NCBI RefSeq assembly: GCF_003855255.1
Contig: NZ_CP034072.1
Coordinates: 6,676,753-6,740,752, forward strand
Direction: 5' to 3'
Origin: Mycolicibacterium nivoides
Lineage (GTDB): Bacteria > Actinomycetota > Actinomycetes > Mycobacteriales > Mycobacteriaceae
DNA length: 64,000 nt
Shown: positions 49,339 to 56,751 of the stretch, piece by piece
Layout of the letters: every line of letters begins with the position of its first letter
Numbering within the stretch: position 1 is the first letter of the stretch
Notes under the pieces: model-generated
Seen by the model: the letters and a program-made list of their open reading frames with translations, nothing else
What the model was told of the DNA's origin: nothing
Database searches by the model: none
Made by a program: the position numbers and the translations under genes

Positions 49339-50118
49339 ATGACGCTGCAATTCGATCTGTCGAACCGCCGGGTGTTGATCACCGGTGCCGGACAGGGTGT
49401 CGGCCGGGGACTTGCCGATGCTTTCGCCGCGGCCGGTGCCACTGTGCTGGTCAATGACCTCCGAGGCGAGCGGGCCGAGGCTGTGGCCACAGAGCTGCGG
49501 GACGCGGGCGGCGATGCGCTGGCGGTGCCGTTCGACGTCACCGACTACGAAGCGGTCACGCAGGCGATCACGAAGGCCGGGCCCGCCGACATCCTGGTCA
49601 ACAACGCGGGCAACGCCGGGGCCGACGGATTCGCCGCCCGGATGCCTTTCGCGGACACCACCCCTGCGGATTGGGACCCGTTCCTGCAGGTGAATCTGTA
49701 TGGGGTACTGCACTGCACGCGGGCAGCGTTGCCGACGATGGTGGAGCGGCAATGGGGCCGGGTCGTGACGATCGTGTCGGATGCCGGACGGACCGGAGAT
49801 GCCAGCGGTGCGGTGTACGCGGCGGCCAAGGCCGGAGCCGCGGGACTGACGCGGTCGATCGCCTTGGAGAACGGCCGCTACGGCATCACCGCCAACAACA
49901 TCGCGTTGGGCACCATGCGCACACCGCTGACCGAACCGCTGTGGGCTGAGATGGGCGACTCCCCGCAGGCCAAGGCGATCCTGTCGCGCTACCCGATCCG
50001 CAGGCCCGGCCTGCCCGAGGACGTCGCCTACCTCGCGGTGCTGCTGGCCAGCGACCACGGCTCCTGGATCACCGGCCAGACGCTACCGGTCAACGGCGGC
50101 TACTCCTTCGCGATGTGA
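49339..50118 (+). CDS. Short-chain dehydrogenase/reductase (FabG-like)
   Basis: The 259-residue protein has TGAGQGVG for the cofactor, NNAGNAG, a catalytic Ser in VSDAG and YAAAK with Tyr and Lys. The C-terminal LASDHGSWITGQTLPVNGGYSF is the classical SDR ending. Such proteins are often 3-hydroxyacyl-CoA or ketone reductases. Its 3' end overlaps the convergent tetR gene by 36 bp, so transcription of the two genes may interfere. Confidence 0.9.
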   Translation: MTLQFDLSNRRVLITGAGQGVGRGLADAFAAAGATVLVNDLRGERAEAVATELRDAGGDALAVPFDVTDYEAVTQAITKAGPADILVNNAGNAGADGFAARMPFADTTPADWDPFLQVNLYGVLHCTRAALPTMVERQWGRVVTIVSDAGRTGDASGAVYAAAKAGAAGLTRSIALENGRYGITANNIALGTMRTPLTEPLWAEMGDSPQAKAILSRYPIRRPGLPEDVAYLAVLLASDHGSWITGQTLPVNGGYSFAM

Positions 50119-50718
50119 GGCGGCCGGTGCCGCCGCGACGATCGCGGTGATGATGCCGTGCAATTCCTCGTCGGAGTTGATCGTGCGGTCGCCGCGAGCC
50201 AGGGCCAGCATCAGTCCGCTGATGAAAGTCAGCAGTACATAGGACTTTTCATCGATCAGGCCCGGGTCGGTATCGGACGGGCAGAGTGCGACCACCACGT
50301 TTCGGTGCAGCTCGAAGAACCGCTGCTGGTTGTGGCTGAACGCCTCGGCCAGGCCGGCGTCCCGGCTGGACGGCATCACCAGCTCGTAGCGGGCCTTGCT
50401 CCGCACCAGGCGCGCACCGGTTCCGGAGCGGATGACCAGGCGGGCCAGCCCGACCGCTGGTGACGGGCCGTCGCCGCCGTTGTCCGATCGGGTGGCCGCG
50501 GTGAGATCGGCCAGGTCGAGATCGGCGATGCGGTTGGCGGCCGCACGGATCAACGCCGAACTGGTGCGGAAGTAGAACGACGTGGTCCCGTCGGCAACCC
50601 CGGCCTTGCGGTCGACCTTCAGGTGGGTGACACCCTTGATGCCCTCACGGGCGAGCAGAGCGATTGCCGCATCGCACAATTCGCGTCGACGTTGCTCGGG
50701 GTTCTGTTTACCTCCCAT
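50083..50718 (-). CDS. TetR-family transcriptional regulator
   Basis: The 211-residue protein has an N-terminal HTH (RRRELCDAAIALLAREGIKGVTHLKVDRKAGVADGTTSFYFRTSSALIRAAANRI) and a helical ligand domain. It lies in tail-to-tail overlap with the SDR gene and could repress the SDR/LLM pair through the palindrome at 49267. It is 7 bp downstream of the flavin monooxygenase gene on the same strand, so it may instead be the third gene of the helR operon. Confidence 0.88.
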   Translation of the reverse strand: MGGKQNPEQRRRELCDAAIALLAREGIKGVTHLKVDRKAGVADGTTSFYFRTSSALIRAAANRIADLDLADLTAATRSDNGGDGPSPAVGLARLVIRSGTGARLVRSKARYELVMPSSRDAGLAEAFSHNQQRFFELHRNVVVALCPSDTDPGLIDEKSYVLLTFISGLMLALARGDRTINSDEELHGIITAIVAAAPAASHREGVAAVDR

Positions 50719-50725
50719 GCTGGAC

Positions 50726-51931
50726 CTAACGGCGGGCCGGCTCGGGCACGTGTTCCGGACGGACCCCGGTGCCCACCAGGTAGGCGGGGATCGCGGTGAG
50801 CTGGGGGAACCGGCGCACGATGCTCACCAGTGCCCCGGGTGGGGTGACCTCGGCGCCCGCCATCACCGGCGCCATCACCTGACGATGCAGGATCCGTTGA
50901 AAGCCCTGGGTAACGGCGGTCGGCAGGGTGCGCTGGCGCTGCACGGCGGCCAGGTCGGACTCGGTCACCCGGTGCTCGCGCAGCGGCTGGTACAGCAGGC
51001 GGGCGGCCGCGGCGGCGTCCTGGATCGCGACGTTGATACCGACCCCACCCACGGGCGACATGGCATGTGCGGCATCGCCGATGCACAGCACACCGTCGCG
51101 ATGCCACCGCGGCAGGCGGTTGAGCTGGACGTCGAGATGTTTGACGTCGTCCCACGAGGTGAGTGTGTCCACGTCGGCCTCGGGGATCAGCCCGGCCAGC
51201 TCCGCGCGGAACGCGTCCAGCCCACGGGCCCGCAGCCCGGCGTCGCTGCCCTTCGGGATCAGGTAGGCGACCTGGAAGTAGCCCGTGCGGGGAATCATGA
51301 TCAGCGCGCGTCCGGGTGCCGTGCGCGGGATCAGCGAGTACTGGCCGTCCTCGGTGCGCGGCAACCGGAACCACCACACGTCGAAGGGCACCGGGTAGTC
51401 CCGGGTGGTCAGCCCGGCCTCCCGCCTGACCACCGACGTACGGCCGTCGCAGGCCACGGTGAGCTCGGCGCGCAGCTCACCGTCGCCGTCGGGACCGGTG
51501 TAGCGCACCCCGGTGATCCGCTCGCCCTCGCGCAGCAGCCCGGTCACCTCGGTCCGCATGAGCAGCGTGAAGTTGGGTTCACCGCGGCCCGCATCGGCCA
51601 GCAGGTCGAGGAAGTCCCACTGCGGCACCATCGCCACGTACGGGTGAGGCTGGCGCAGCCGCCGGAAGTCGACGAGCGTCACCGGCTGACCGCCGACCGG
51701 GAACTGGGCCTTCTCCACCTTGCTGTAGCCGATCTTGCTGAACTCGCCGAAGAGCCCCAGCTCATCGAGCATGCGCATGGTGCTCGGATGCACTGTGTCA
51801 CCGCGGAAATCGCGCAGGAAGTCGGCGTGCTTCTCCATGACGGTGACCGCCACCCCGCACCGCGCCAGGATCAGGCCGAGCATCATCCCGGCGGGACCGC
51901 CGCCGACGATCGCACATGTGGTGTCAGACAT
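50726..51931 (-). CDS. Group A flavoprotein monooxygenase downstream of helR
   Basis: The 401-residue FAD enzyme has GGGPAGMMLGLILA (dinucleotide-binding), the central ACDGRTSVVRR (DG motif) and CIGDAAHAMSPVGGVGIN (FAD ribityl GD motif), as in PHBH-type hydroxylases. It lacks the C-terminal thioredoxin-like domain of larger aromatic hydroxylases such as the rifampicin monooxygenase Rox. ATG 51931 overlaps the helR stop by 8 bp, so it is translated from the same mRNA and should be induced with helR. A drug-modifying role is inferred from context only. Confidence 0.88.
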   Translation of the reverse strand: MSDTTCAIVGGGPAGMMLGLILARCGVAVTVMEKHADFLRDFRGDTVHPSTMRMLDELGLFGEFSKIGYSKVEKAQFPVGGQPVTLVDFRRLRQPHPYVAMVPQWDFLDLLADAGRGEPNFTLLMRTEVTGLLREGERITGVRYTGPDGDGELRAELTVACDGRTSVVRREAGLTTRDYPVPFDVWWFRLPRTEDGQYSLIPRTAPGRALIMIPRTGYFQVAYLIPKGSDAGLRARGLDAFRAELAGLIPEADVDTLTSWDDVKHLDVQLNRLPRWHRDGVLCIGDAAHAMSPVGGVGINVAIQDAAAAARLLYQPLREHRVTESDLAAVQRQRTLPTAVTQGFQRILHRQVMAPVMAGAEVTPPGALVSIVRRFPQLTAIPAYLVGTGVRPEHVPEPARR

Positions 51932-54098
51932 GGGCCAGACCGTTCAGCGCGTCGGGCAGGGGTTCGGTGTGCAGCACACCGAGGCGTTGCGTCGCGCGGG
52001 TGAGCGCGACGTACAACTCGGCGGCACCGCGGTCACCATCGGCCAGGATGTGTGCGGGTTCCACGACGAGTACCGCGTCGAACTCAAGGCCCTTGGTTTC
52101 CGAAGGGGCCACCGCGCCGGGCACCCCGGGCGGGCCGATCACCACAAAGGTGCCCTCGCGGGTGGCTTCATCTCGTGTGAATTCCTCGACAGCGGAAGGG
52201 ATTTCGTCGGCAGTCAGCTGCTTCGACCACGGCTGCACGCCACACGCCCGCACCGACTCCGGAGGCTGAACCCCGGGTGCGAACTCGGCCAGCAGTGCTC
52301 CGGCCACCGTCATGATCTCGGCCGGGGTGCGGTAGTTCACCGACAGCGTCCGGTAGATCCACCGGCCCGGCACATACGGCTCGAGCATCCTGTCCCAGGA
52401 CCGGGCGCCGGCGGCGGAGCGGCGCTGGGCCAGATCGCCGACGACCGTGAAGGACCGGCGTGGGCAACGGCGCATCAGGATCCGCCAGTCCATCTCGGAC
52501 AGTTCCTGGGCTTCGTCGACCACAACATGACCGTAGGTCCAATCCCGGTCGGCCGCAGCACGTTCAGCGAGTTCCCGGGTATCGCGCTCGAGGAACCGGT
52601 CGGCCAGGTCCTCGGCGTCGATGAGGTCGCTGGCCAGCAGGTGATCCTCGTCGTCCATCAGATCCTCGCGGGCGATCATCAGGTCGAGCACCCCTGCGGC
52701 GTAGGCCGCTTCCTCCCGTCGTTCGCGTTCCGCGGCTTCGTCGGCCGCCTTGTCCCGGCCCAGCAGGTCGACCAACTCGTCGAGCAACGGCACGTCCGAG
52801 ATGGTCCAGGCGCTGCCGTCGGCACGGAGCAGCCGGGGATCGGCGCCGGCCGCGGACAGCCGATCGGGTGACGAGTACAGCGGGGTCAGCAGGGATTCCG
52901 GGGTCAGGATCGGCCACAGCCGATCGAGTGCCTCGGCGAACGCGGCGTTCTCGTCGAGTTCGCTGACCACACTCGCCCGGAGCTCCTCCCATGCTGCCTT
53001 GTCCGCGCGGCTGAGCCATCCCTTGCCGATGCGGGCCACGGCGCGTTCGGTGAGGACGTAGGTGACGATGTCGCGGAACGTCGCGCGGGCCTCGTTGTGC
53101 GGCAGCCCGGTCTCGCGGGCCTCCTCGATGGCCCACTGCGCGATTTCGGCGTCGATGCGCACCGTGACGTCGGGCAGTTCGATGAAGATCGGCTCGGCGG
53201 GCACCTCCTGGCGGTCGGCCACCGCGGCGGCCAACACGTCGAGGATCTGCAGCGAGCCCTTGATCGCGGCCACCTCGGGCGCGTCTTCGGCGGTGACGTG
53301 CAGGCCGGGGACCAGGTCGCCGGGTGTCATGAACACCGCATCGGACTCACCCAGCGAGGGCAGCACCCGGCCGATGTGGTCCAGGAACGCCTCATTGGGC
53401 CCGACGACCAGAACGCCGTGGCGTTCGATCCGCTCGCGATGGGTGTAGAGCAGGTAGGCCACGCGGTGCAGTGCCACCACGGTCTTGCCGGTGCCCGGGC
53501 CGCCCTCCACCACGAGCACTCCGGTGTGTTCGTTGCGGATGACCTCGTCCTGTTCGGCCTGGATCGTCGCGACGATGTCGCGCATGCCCTCGCCGCGCGG
53601 GGCGTTCACCGCAGCCAGCAGTGCGGCATCACCTTCATCACCCTCGGTGGGCCGGCCCAGCACCTCGTCGGTGAAATCGAGCACGCGACGCCCAAGCGTG
53701 CGGAACTGGCGGCGCCGGCGCATGTTCTCGGGGTTGGCCCCGGTCGCGGTGTAGAACGGCCGGGCCAGCGGTGCCCGCCAGTCCAGCAGCAACGGTTCGT
53801 AGTCGTCCTCACGGTCGAAGAGACCCAGGCGGCCGACGTAGAGATGTTCTCCGGCAAGGGTTTCCAGCCGCCCGAAGCACAGGCCGTTGTCGGCCACGTC
53901 GAGCCGGTTGGCTTCCTTGGCCAGCGCCCGTACCTCGGCGTCGCGTTCCACCGCGGAACCGCCGTGCTCGCGCAGCGCGGTGCGGTACCGGTCACGTACC
54001 CGGATGCGCTCGGCGTCCAAGCGGGAGTAGAGCCCGTCGACATAGGTCTGTTCGGTCTGTACTTCGATGTCGTGCTCGTCAGTTGGCACGTTCCCCAC
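51924..54098 (-). CDS. helR: HelR/HelD-like RNA-polymerase-associated helicase
   Basis: The 724-residue superfamily 1 ATPase starts at GTG 54098 with GAGG 6 nt upstream. A coiled N-terminal region (TYVDGLYSRLDAERIRVRDRYRTALREHGG) is followed by Walker A VVEGGPGTGKTVVALHR, Walker B HVVVDEAQELSEMDW and the C-terminal VALTRATQRLGVL. This is the layout of HelD-family proteins, which enter the RNA polymerase channels and remove DNA or rifamycin. In M. abscessus and Streptomyces, HelR gives rifamycin tolerance. The RAE upstream of this gene supports HelR rather than a DNA-repair helicase. Confidence 0.9.
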   Translation of the reverse strand: MGNVPTDEHDIEVQTEQTYVDGLYSRLDAERIRVRDRYRTALREHGGSAVERDAEVRALAKEANRLDVADNGLCFGRLETLAGEHLYVGRLGLFDREDDYEPLLLDWRAPLARPFYTATGANPENMRRRRQFRTLGRRVLDFTDEVLGRPTEGDEGDAALLAAVNAPRGEGMRDIVATIQAEQDEVIRNEHTGVLVVEGGPGTGKTVVALHRVAYLLYTHRERIERHGVLVVGPNEAFLDHIGRVLPSLGESDAVFMTPGDLVPGLHVTAEDAPEVAAIKGSLQILDVLAAAVADRQEVPAEPIFIELPDVTVRIDAEIAQWAIEEARETGLPHNEARATFRDIVTYVLTERAVARIGKGWLSRADKAAWEELRASVVSELDENAAFAEALDRLWPILTPESLLTPLYSSPDRLSAAGADPRLLRADGSAWTISDVPLLDELVDLLGRDKAADEAAERERREEAAYAAGVLDLMIAREDLMDDEDHLLASDLIDAEDLADRFLERDTRELAERAAADRDWTYGHVVVDEAQELSEMDWRILMRRCPRRSFTVVGDLAQRRSAAGARSWDRMLEPYVPGRWIYRTLSVNYRTPAEIMTVAGALLAEFAPGVQPPESVRACGVQPWSKQLTADEIPSAVEEFTRDEATREGTFVVIGPPGVPGAVAPSETKGLEFDAVLVVEPAHILADGDRGAAELYVALTRATQRLGVLHTEPLPDALNGLAHV

Positions 54099-54152
54099 AG
54101 TTACCTCGCTTATCCGTGGTTTGGTTCGGCCAGCGATTGTGCGCCATCACCG

Positions 54153-54171
54153 GGGCCTTGCCGCAAGGCCC
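54153..54171 (-). promoter_or_regulatory. Rifamycin-Associated Element (RAE) upstream of helR
   Basis: Read on the minus strand the site is GGGCCTTGCGGCAAGGCCC, differing at one position from the published 19-bp RAE, GGGGCTTGCGGCAAGGCCC. It lies 54 bp upstream of the helR start, in the 106-bp gap after the upstream helicase gene. RAEs are found upstream of rifamycin-inactivating and HelR genes in actinobacteria and mediate rifamycin induction. The match is recalled from knowledge of the element, not from a search. Confidence 0.88.
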
Positions 54172-54204
54172 GGGGTCCGCGATAAAATGGGGTTCAGCAA
54201 CCGC

Positions 54205-56751
54205 TCACCCCATCCGGCCCACGTCCACGATACGCAGCACCGCGGCACCCTCCTCATCGCTGGCAGCCAGGTCGACTTCCACGTCGAAGCCCCAATCGTG
54301 ATCTCCGGCAGGATCTTCGAGGATCTGTCGAATTCGCCACACCTGCGCCTGCCGGTCGAAGATCAGCAACGCCGGGCCACGGGCGTCGGCTCCGGTACCC
54401 ACCTCCGCGTGCTCGTCGAAGTACGCCTCGCCCGCGTCGGCCCAGCGCTCGGCCGTCCAGCCGGACGCGGCGTCAAGCGCCCCGAGCTCGTCCCAGCGGG
54501 ACCGGGCGAACAACTCGACCCGGCGGAACAACGCGTTGCGGACCATCGCGGTGAAAGCCCGCTCGTTGCCGGTCAGCGGGCGTGGCCGGGCCGGCACCGC
54601 GCGGATTTCTTGCACGGGAACGCCCGCCTCTTGGTCCGGGCTCGTCAGCTGCTCCCACTCGTCGAGCAGGCTGGAATCGACCTGGCGCACCAGCTCGCCG
54701 AGCCATTCGACGATGTCGGCGAGCTGCTCGGTGCGGGCGGCCGTCGGCACGCCCGAGCGCAGCGCCTTGAACGCGTCGGACAGGTAGCGCAGCACGGCGC
54801 CTTCGGAGCGGGTCAGCCCGTAGACGCTGATGTACTCGCGGAAGGTCAGGGCCCGCTCCCACATCTCGCGAACCACCGACTTGGGGGACAGGTGTCCGTC
54901 GGCGGCCCACGGGTTGGTCTGCCGGTACACCTCGTAGGTGTGTTCCAGCAGTTCTTGCAGCGGCTTGGGATAGGTGACCTCGTCGAGCAGCTCGATGCGT
55001 TCGTCGTACTCGATCCCGTCGGCCTTCATCTGCGCCACCGCCTCACCCCTGGCCTTGTTCAGCTGGGCGGCCAGGATCTGGCGAGGGTCTTCCAGGGTGG
55101 CCTCGATCACCGAAACCACGTCCAGCGCATAGGTTTCCGAGTCGGGATCCAGGACGTCGACCGCCGCCAGCGCGAAGGTCGACAGCGGCTGGTTGAGCGC
55201 GAAGTCGTCCGGTAGGTCGACGGTCAGCCGGTACCGGCGGCCGTCAGGTTCGGGTGTGTCGAGGCGCTCGATGACTCCGGCCTGCAGCAACGAGCGGGCG
55301 ATCCCGACCGCCTCCCGGATGTGCTTGAGCTGACGCTTGCGGGGTTCGTGATTGTCGGTGAGGAGCCGTCGCATCGCCGCGAACGGGTCGCCCGGGCGGT
55401 CGACCACGTCGAGGATCATCGCCGTGGAGACCCGCATGTTGCTGGTCAACGGTTCGGGCGCGGCGTCGATCAGCCGGTTCATGGTGGCCTCGCCCCACGG
55501 CACCATGCCCTCAGGTGCCTTGCGCCGCACCAACTTCCGGCGCTTCTTGGGGTCGTCGGCCACCTTGGCGAACTGCTTGAGGTTCTCCACCTCGTGGTCG
55601 GGTGCCTGCACCACCACGGTGCCTGCGGTGTCGTATCCCGCGCGCCCGGCCCGCCCGGCGATCTGGTGGAACTCACGGGCGTTGAGCAACCGCATGCGGG
55701 TGCCGTCGTACTTGGACAGGGCGGAGAACACCACGGTGCGGATCGGGACGTTGATGCCGACCCCGAGGGTGTCGGTGCCGCAGATCACCTTGAGCAGTCC
55801 GGCCTGGGCCAGTTGTTCCACCAGCCGCCGGTACTTGGGCAGCATGCCGGCGTGGTGGACGCCGATGCCGTGCCGCACCAGTCGCGACAGGGTGGTGCCG
55901 AAGGTCGTCGAGAAACGGAAGCCGCCGATCATCTCGGCGATGGCGGCCTTCTCCTCCTTGGTGCAGACGTTGACGCTCATCAACGCCTGGGCCCGCTCGA
56001 GGGCGGAGGCCTGGGTGAAGTGCACGACGTAGATCGGCGCCTGTTTGGTGTCGAGCAGATCGGCGATGGTCTCGTGCATCGGCGTGGTGGCGTACGAGAA
56101 GAACAGTGGCACCGGCCTTTCCGCCCCTGCGACCAGCGCGGTCGGACGTCCCGTGCGGCGGGTGAGGTCCTCACGCAGGAACGTGACGTCGCCCAGCGTC
56201 GCCGACATCAGCAGGAACTGGGCCCTGGGGAGTTCGAGCAGCGGGACCTGCCACGCCCAGCCGCGATCCGGGTCGCCGTAGAAGTGGAACTCGTCCATCA
56301 CCACCAGGCCGATGTCCGCTTCGGCCCCTTCGCGCAGCGCGAGGTTGGCCAGGATCTCGGCGGTACACGCGATGATCGGCGCGTCGGCGTTGACCGACGC
56401 GTCCCCGGTGAGCATGCCGACGTTGTCGGCCCCGAACACATCGCACAGCGCGAAGAACTTCTCACTGACCAATGCCTTGATCGGGGCGGTGTAGAAACTG
56501 ACGCGGTCCGCGGCGAGCGCCGCATAGATCGCCCCGGTGGCCACCAGGGATTTGCCGGAACCGGTCGGCGTCGCGAGGATCACGTTCGCTCCGCTGACCA
56601 GTTCGATCAGCGCCTCCTCCTGCGCGGGATAGAGCGTGGTGCCGTTGGCCTCGGCCCAGCCGGCGAAGTCGGTGAACAGGGTGTCGGCATCGTTGCCCTT
56701 GGCATGCAGCGCCGACAGGTCGCTCGGGTCATCGAGGAGGGGAGTGGTCAT
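54205..56751 (-). CDS. Ski2-like DExH RNA helicase (DUF3516 type)
   Basis: The 848-residue superfamily 2 helicase has motif I TPTGSGKSLVATG, motif II as DEFH (VVMDEFHFYGD), motif III MSATLG and motif VI QIAGRAGRAGYDT. The C-terminal 400 residues belong to the DUF3516 family. It is related to, but shorter than, mycobacterial HelY. Such proteins unwind structured RNA or DNA. It lies upstream of helR but has its own separation (106 bp, with the RAE between them). Confidence 0.9.
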   Translation of the reverse strand: MTTPLLDDPSDLSALHAKGNDADTLFTDFAGWAEANGTTLYPAQEEALIELVSGANVILATPTGSGKSLVATGAIYAALAADRVSFYTAPIKALVSEKFFALCDVFGADNVGMLTGDASVNADAPIIACTAEILANLALREGAEADIGLVVMDEFHFYGDPDRGWAWQVPLLELPRAQFLLMSATLGDVTFLREDLTRRTGRPTALVAGAERPVPLFFSYATTPMHETIADLLDTKQAPIYVVHFTQASALERAQALMSVNVCTKEEKAAIAEMIGGFRFSTTFGTTLSRLVRHGIGVHHAGMLPKYRRLVEQLAQAGLLKVICGTDTLGVGINVPIRTVVFSALSKYDGTRMRLLNAREFHQIAGRAGRAGYDTAGTVVVQAPDHEVENLKQFAKVADDPKKRRKLVRRKAPEGMVPWGEATMNRLIDAAPEPLTSNMRVSTAMILDVVDRPGDPFAAMRRLLTDNHEPRKRQLKHIREAVGIARSLLQAGVIERLDTPEPDGRRYRLTVDLPDDFALNQPLSTFALAAVDVLDPDSETYALDVVSVIEATLEDPRQILAAQLNKARGEAVAQMKADGIEYDERIELLDEVTYPKPLQELLEHTYEVYRQTNPWAADGHLSPKSVVREMWERALTFREYISVYGLTRSEGAVLRYLSDAFKALRSGVPTAARTEQLADIVEWLGELVRQVDSSLLDEWEQLTSPDQEAGVPVQEIRAVPARPRPLTGNERAFTAMVRNALFRRVELFARSRWDELGALDAASGWTAERWADAGEAYFDEHAEVGTGADARGPALLIFDRQAQVWRIRQILEDPAGDHDWGFDVEVDLAASDEEGAAVLRIVDVGRMG

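Follow-up and report, generated by a model that had tools for sequence, protein, structure and literature searches.

A helR-flavin monooxygenase-tetR gene cluster behind a Rifamycin-Associated Element in Mycolicibacterium nivoides and its relatives

The stretch of DNA analyzed here (the window) comprises 64,000 nucleotides of the Mycolicibacterium nivoides genome (contig NZ_CP034072.1, positions 6,676,753 to 6,740,752). Within it, genes for a HelR-like protein (helR), a flavin monooxygenase (FMO), and a TetR-family regulator (tetR) follow one another behind a palindrome matching the Rifamycin-Associated Element (RAE) (Table 1). An earlier note, made from the letters alone (the original prediction), had proposed that helR and the FMO gene overlap by 8 bp and therefore must share an RAE-driven mRNA. 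The 8-bp overlap of helR stop and FMO start was borne out by the gene coordinates. Co-transcription of the two genes, possibly together with tetR, is very likely, as judged from this overlap, which is a weaker statement than the one originally made. The tetR gene, absent from the original prediction, starts 7 bp beyond the FMO stop and thus a three-gene operon is likely. A scan of positions 49900-54300, which is also blind to the RAE region as a promoter, returned 0 promoter-like sites (0.2 expected) and one terminator-like site (1.2 expected).

Table 1. Features of the helR locus (positions in the window)
Feature	Position	Strand	Size	Remarks
RAE palindrome GGGCCTTGCGGCAAGGCCC	54153-54171	-	19 bp	perfect palindrome; pattern match to the RAE of arr
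helR (class II HelD/HelR)	51924-54098	-	724 aa	NCBIfam NF041465, NF041258; PDB 6yxu chain H
FMO gene (flavin monooxygenase, NCBIfam PRK06185 family)	50726-51931	-	401 aa	PF01494, NF004833
tetR (TetR-family regulator)	50083-50718	-	211 aa	Pfam TetR_N and TetR_C_31 just under cut-offs
DUF3516 DEAD-box helicase gene	54205-56751	-		upstream neighbor on the same strand, outside the RAE unit; gap to helR 106 bp
SDR gene	49339-50118	+		convergent; overlaps the 3' end of tetR

The palindrome, in its minus-strand reading GGGCCTTGCGGCAAGGCCC, was identical at 18 of 19 positions to GGGGCTTGCGGCAAGGCCC, which precedes arr in the same genome, and it ends 54 bp ahead of the GTG start of helR at position 54098. 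Matches with up to three mismatches were expected by chance in the window at a mean of 0.05 (100 shuffles). The claim that an RAE lies 54 bp ahead of helR was thus confirmed. In the whole 6.9-Mb genome, the pattern as typed occurred with at most two mismatches in only two places, before arr and before helR. When three mismatches were allowed, 5 forward and 2 reverse sites were found as compared with 5 and 11 for the reversed-pattern control, i.e. no excess over the control; with at most one mismatch to GGGNCTTGCGGCAAGNCCC there were 2 forward and 2 reverse sites, the control giving 0 and 1. A second arr-like gene of the genome (G000:C1:6395641-6396021), 50% identical, has no RAE match nearby. 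As described in PMC10719064, the RAE of helR overlaps the -35 region of the second promoter; in M. abscessus, induction is abolished when the upstream half of the RAE is deleted.

RAE-like palindromes were present in 151 of 198 genomes of the genus. Thirty RAE loci, one per genome, were examined. The element stood before arr in 16 of them, before an FMO gene in 8, before helR in 3, and before rgt, the gene for the rifamycin-inactivating glycosyltransferase Rgt, in 3, that is before a rifamycin-type gene in all 30, and the aligned part of the gene began 5-129 bp from the RAE (for L112 as read from a second piece). The RAE is therefore a good marker of such genes, and the operon in the window is a sound candidate for rifamycin induction.

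The helR product passed both curated cut-offs for the M. smegmatis HelD and HelR families, with 1443 bits for NF041465 (cut-off 1051) and 1352 bits for NF041258 (cut-off 1100). Residues 9-722 aligned with chain H of PDB 6yxu. Both acidic residues at the tip of the primary-channel loop were retained, E484 and D485 aligning with Glu484/Asp485 of the M. smegmatis chain. HelR is described as a target-protection protein under an RAE, and the acidic pair of the loop is reported in PMC10719064 to be needed for rifampicin resistance. Family membership and the loop residues associated with the eviction of rifampicin thus substantiated the predicted identity as HelR. MSMEG_2174 of M. smegmatis and MAB_3189c of M. 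abscessus, both helR genes under RAE control, encode the same class of HelR behind the same kind of 19-bp palindrome (PMC10719064). In the window, the end of helR is overlapped by the FMO gene, with tetR 7 bp behind the latter. In M. smegmatis, the most rifampicin-induced genes include a Rox homologue (MSMEG_2252), MSMEG_2174 (helR), and arr (PMC6529629).

The FMO matched PF01494 with 217 bits and lies within the PRK06185 family of FAD-dependent oxidoreductases (NF004833), the curated cut-off of which it passed (655 bits, cut-off 488). With NF033145, the model for rifampin monooxygenase (Rox), it gave 75 bits in partial matches and missed the cut-off of 800. The same model applied across the genome returned 23 rows, none over the cut-off; the window FMO ranked ninth with 52 bits, and the best match reached 404 bits. 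Like Rox/RIFMO, the FMO is a PF01494 flavoprotein monooxygenase, and it matched PDB 5vqb (E 6.5e-16); unlike Rox, it has 401 residues as against 472 model positions, covers parts of the model only, and falls on another branch of the tree. Rox carries an extra C-terminal domain, and the shorter length of the FMO suggests that this domain is absent. The closest solved structure by sequence was PDB 8uiu, titled Flavin monooxygenase (E 5.2e-40), for which a literature search returned only unrelated papers. Among 49 sequences, G10, G12, and G15 were at least 90% conserved, and D162, G163, G285, and D286 were invariant; we take these residues to be the GxGxxG, DG, and GD motifs of group A flavin monooxygenases.

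Seven of the eight FMOs found directly behind an RAE were scored with the Rox model; the eighth, L132, is cut by a contig end and was left unscored. They reached 234-459 bits over most of the model, all under 800, and five of the seven passed the cut-off of the neighboring family PRK06834. They are Rox-related only in the sense of these scores. The eight (L108, L110, L114, L115, L118, L120, L124, and L132) comprise two sequence types sharing about 33-41% identity. In a tree of 90 sequences, from which a motif filter had dropped L115 and three of the eight FMO loci of the window's own genome (L336, L338, and L340), the seven remaining RAE-preceded FMOs grouped with the protein of this genome that scored highest on the Rox model. 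The window FMO fell among PRK06185 proteins from a wide range of actinobacteria and from some proteobacteria, apart from the RAE-preceded FMOs. On model score, rank in the own genome, and tree together, an assignment of the FMO to Rox was rejected, in agreement with the earlier surmise that it belongs to a different subgroup.

The conservation of the helR-FMO junction was followed with junction-spanning DNA. Among the matches listed, those extending across the junction came from at least 21 of the 396 genomes searched in the genus; the remaining listed matches cover one side only. An order-level search at E 1e-120 gave 3 matches in 298 genomes of 66 genera, all in one genus and including the window's own genome, and hence no junction outside the genus in those 298 genomes at the DNA level, a search blind to diverged copies. 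Around helR itself, 110 near-complete loci were surveyed (15 of 125 matching genomes were left out as fragments or distant matches). An FMO-family match at E 1e-20 was found in 11 of 11 loci inside the group of junction genomes and in none of the 99 helR loci outside it, within the 5-17 kb around each. Named proteins 86-93% identical to the FMO came from M. fortuitum, M. lutetiense, M. boenickei, M. senegalense, M. conceptionense, M. peregrinum, M. neworleansense, M. septicum, M. porcinum, several strains without a species name, and an entry with the truncated name "Mycobacterium frede". These relatives place the junction genomes within or close to the M. fortuitum complex, and the junction genomes are referred to below as the M. 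fortuitum group. The order helR-FMO-tetR was also seen in three named loci, of M. setense, sp. URHD0025, and sp. NS-7484. Proteomes of M. conceptionense, which has a protein 92% identical to the FMO, have been published for growth with and without rifampicin (PMC13246000).

Within the 21 junction genomes, the FMO was intact and the order helR-FMO was kept in every case, including G111 and G321, where the upstream helicase gene was not found; in the other 19 the gap between DUF3516 helicase gene and helR was 11-110 bp. An RAE with at most three mismatches preceded helR in 17. By the reference start, the overlap measured 8 bp in 17 of the 21; in the other four the aligned start lay 7-10 bp after the helR stop, although for one of these, G111, the called FMO frame is longer and again gives an 8-bp overlap. 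The tetR gene followed 6-13 bp behind the FMO in 20 genomes, in one of which (G017) it is broken, and was not found in G321. The median pairwise ratio of nonsynonymous to synonymous substitutions was 0.11 for helR (21 genes), 0.15 for the FMO (21), 0.16 for tetR (19), and 0.06 for the DUF3516 helicase (19), and such low values imply purifying selection on helR, FMO, and tetR. The linkage of the three genes is real and conserved, and they probably form an operon induced by rifamycin, which in the genomes examined is confined to a single species group. In genome G313 (locus L394), identity to the window was 99% for helR but only 87% for the FMO, as recombination at the locus would produce.

The FMO family itself is widespread: matches at E 1e-60 were found in 186 of 198 genomes of the genus. 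Of 34 standalone loci (28, of which 8 had only 1.5 kb on each side, plus 6 more), 33 had no RAE nearby; the remaining one, in G192, lies near an RAE that stands before arr. Among 80 named FMO loci viewed with up to 8 kb on each side, three were helR-adjacent, one of these with an RAE, and the other 77 had no RAE. The idea that the family is a general member of the RAE regulon was therefore rejected. PRK06185 relatives examined outside the group do not lie beside helR, unlike the window FMO, and often stand upstream of a related TetR gene. Sixty tetR rows, drawn from 60 of the 70 outside-group genomes of the genus with a tetR match, were paired with FMO-family genes. In 30 of them, a relative of the window TetR lay downstream of such a gene on its strand, 0.2-6.2 kb away; the FMO list used for this pairing was hand-picked among the matches listed and contained one placeholder row. 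In three inspected cases (L099, L408, and L409) the next gene is presumably cytochrome P450-like. The pairing and this neighbor suggest an older FMO-tetR unit. They point to a metabolic or xenobiotic role of that unit, which would have come under an RAE later, in the M. fortuitum group.

The reading that we consider moderately probable is that, in the M. fortuitum group, a helR unit inducible by rifamycin picked up a non-Rox FMO together with its linked tetR, giving an RAE-helR-FMO-tetR operon. Rifamycin would raise transcription of the operon through the RAE, HelR would strip the drug from RNA polymerase, and FMO and TetR would be made from the same message. FMO and its regulator may have been taken over together and then become co-induced. 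Most likely, although with moderate confidence, the FMO hydroxylates aromatic or xenobiotic compounds in general rather than being dedicated to rifamycins; oxidation of rifamycins by it is possible but not favored by the sequences. If the FMO does not act on rifamycins, the locus would be a case of a resistance promoter capturing other genes and would advise caution when function is deduced from RAE linkage.

Several observations weigh against this reading. The RAE was missing in 4 of the 21 junction genomes (G017, G126, G183, and G339), so that the link of helR and FMO is independent of the RAE there. The neighborhood is largely syntenic, 7 to 15 of 15 reference genes being matched in the ten other genomes compared first (fetched stretches); adjacency alone therefore shows little and may be inherited without function. 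The helR-adjacent FMOs formed one clade at a support of only 0.57, beside standalone copies from three other genomes. Genome G192 has a member of this FMO family at a distance of 0.5 kb from an arr gene with an RAE, a reversed gene lying in between (L094:5706-7899). Finally, the RAE-preceded FMOs also stayed under 800 bits, so that missing the Rox cut-off alone excludes no role in rifamycin metabolism. The gene order comparison called for by the original prediction thus had a divided outcome: the FMO was conserved beside helR in all 21 genomes, but these form one largely syntenic clade, which is weak evidence for joint function. The four loci without an RAE are L070, L072, L074, and L403, and in L072 and L074 helR begins 11 bp past the upstream helicase gene. 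Proximity of FMO and arr as in G192 was not seen at the 15 further arr loci with an RAE, each viewed with some 1.5 kb to either side, and a link of the FMO family with arr was dropped; arr matches occurred in 111 genomes, few of which were compared by eye with the FMO-family matches listed.

Doubtful, as we see it, is the two-step module originally put forward, in which HelR releases the drug and the co-induced FMO oxidizes it as a second, non-Rox kind of rifamycin monooxygenase. It draws on the 30 of 30 RAE loci with rifamycin-type genes, eight of them monooxygenases, on the tight overlap in 17 of 21 genomes and the intact FMO in all 21, and on a parallel design elsewhere. In 7 of the 110 helR loci, an RAE lay 1.2-1.3 kb upstream of helR with a glycosyltransferase gene in between, which in six of them (L303, L309, L310, L311, L320, and L325) ends 17-20 bp before helR. 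In genome G192 (L081:5977-9486), an Rgt-like glycosyltransferase and HelR are fused in frame in a reading frame of 1169 aa under an RAE. Two of the glycosyltransferases were scored, a separate one and the fusion part; Rgt was the best family for both (473 and 409 bits), with the cut-off of 800 missed. These loci resemble the window in having an RAE in front and HelR coupled to another enzyme gene; they differ in that the partner is an Rgt relative placed before helR, whereas in the window it is an FMO after helR. Other mycobacteria thus do combine HelR with an enzyme that probably modifies rifamycin, though not with the same one as in the window.

These RAE-rgt-helR loci hence support a coupling of HelR with drug modification as a general idea, but oxidation of rifamycin by the window FMO was not supported. 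Its 75 bits in parts of the Rox model stand against 234-459 bits for the seven RAE-preceded FMOs and its 52 bits in the own genome against 404. It is set apart from those seven in the tree, and its family is widespread without an RAE, as in the 33 of 34 standalone and 77 named relatives; the TetR link appears to be older. According to PMC8752049, a rox gene of M. fortuitum did not raise the minimal inhibitory concentration of rifampicin in Escherichia coli, whereas arr did. This gene is not stated there to be the FMO found beside helR, and it seems likelier to be a relative of the better Rox-model match L335. Literature searches, made mostly on listings and without most subscription papers, revealed no report of a helR operon with an FMO. 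If the FMO does act on rifamycins, resistance catalogues covering an opportunistic species group would have to take in a family that NCBIfam does not label as rifamycin monooxygenase.

An extended form of this proposal appears unlikely. In the M. fortuitum group, HelR would eject the drug, a co-translated PRK06185 FMO representing a rifamycin-oxidizing class distinct from Rox would destroy it, and the operon's own TetR would act as a sensor providing a second layer of control. If true, this would imply, together with RAE-rgt-helR and the Rgt-HelR fusion, that coupling of HelR to drug modification arose more than once. An RAE driving HelR and an enzyme gene together makes the pairing of drug release with drug destruction in mycobacteria testable.

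Rather improbable is an accidental neighborhood, in which a rearrangement put FMO and tetR behind helR to ride on its message under the control of tetR or an unseen promoter: it would fit the regional synteny, the four loci lacking an RAE, and the finding that in 17 of the 99 outside-group loci helR is followed within 20 bp by another called gene on its strand, but the order was kept in 21 of 21 genomes, even in two where the upstream helicase gene was not found, and the genes are under purifying selection. Those inspected among the 17 had no evident link to rifamycin; they include genes that we take to be glycogen-phosphorylase-like and amidohydrolase-like. An RAE lay within 200 bp of helR in 49 of the same 99 loci.

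Further variation was seen among the surveyed helR loci. The helR gene has an internal stop in 2 of the 110 (G117 and G137). In L303, L309, and L311, a gene resembling an LLM-class oxidoreductase follows 18 bp after helR. Seven more helR frames, in L077, L259, L288, L314, L316, L323, and L332, exceed 1000 aa.

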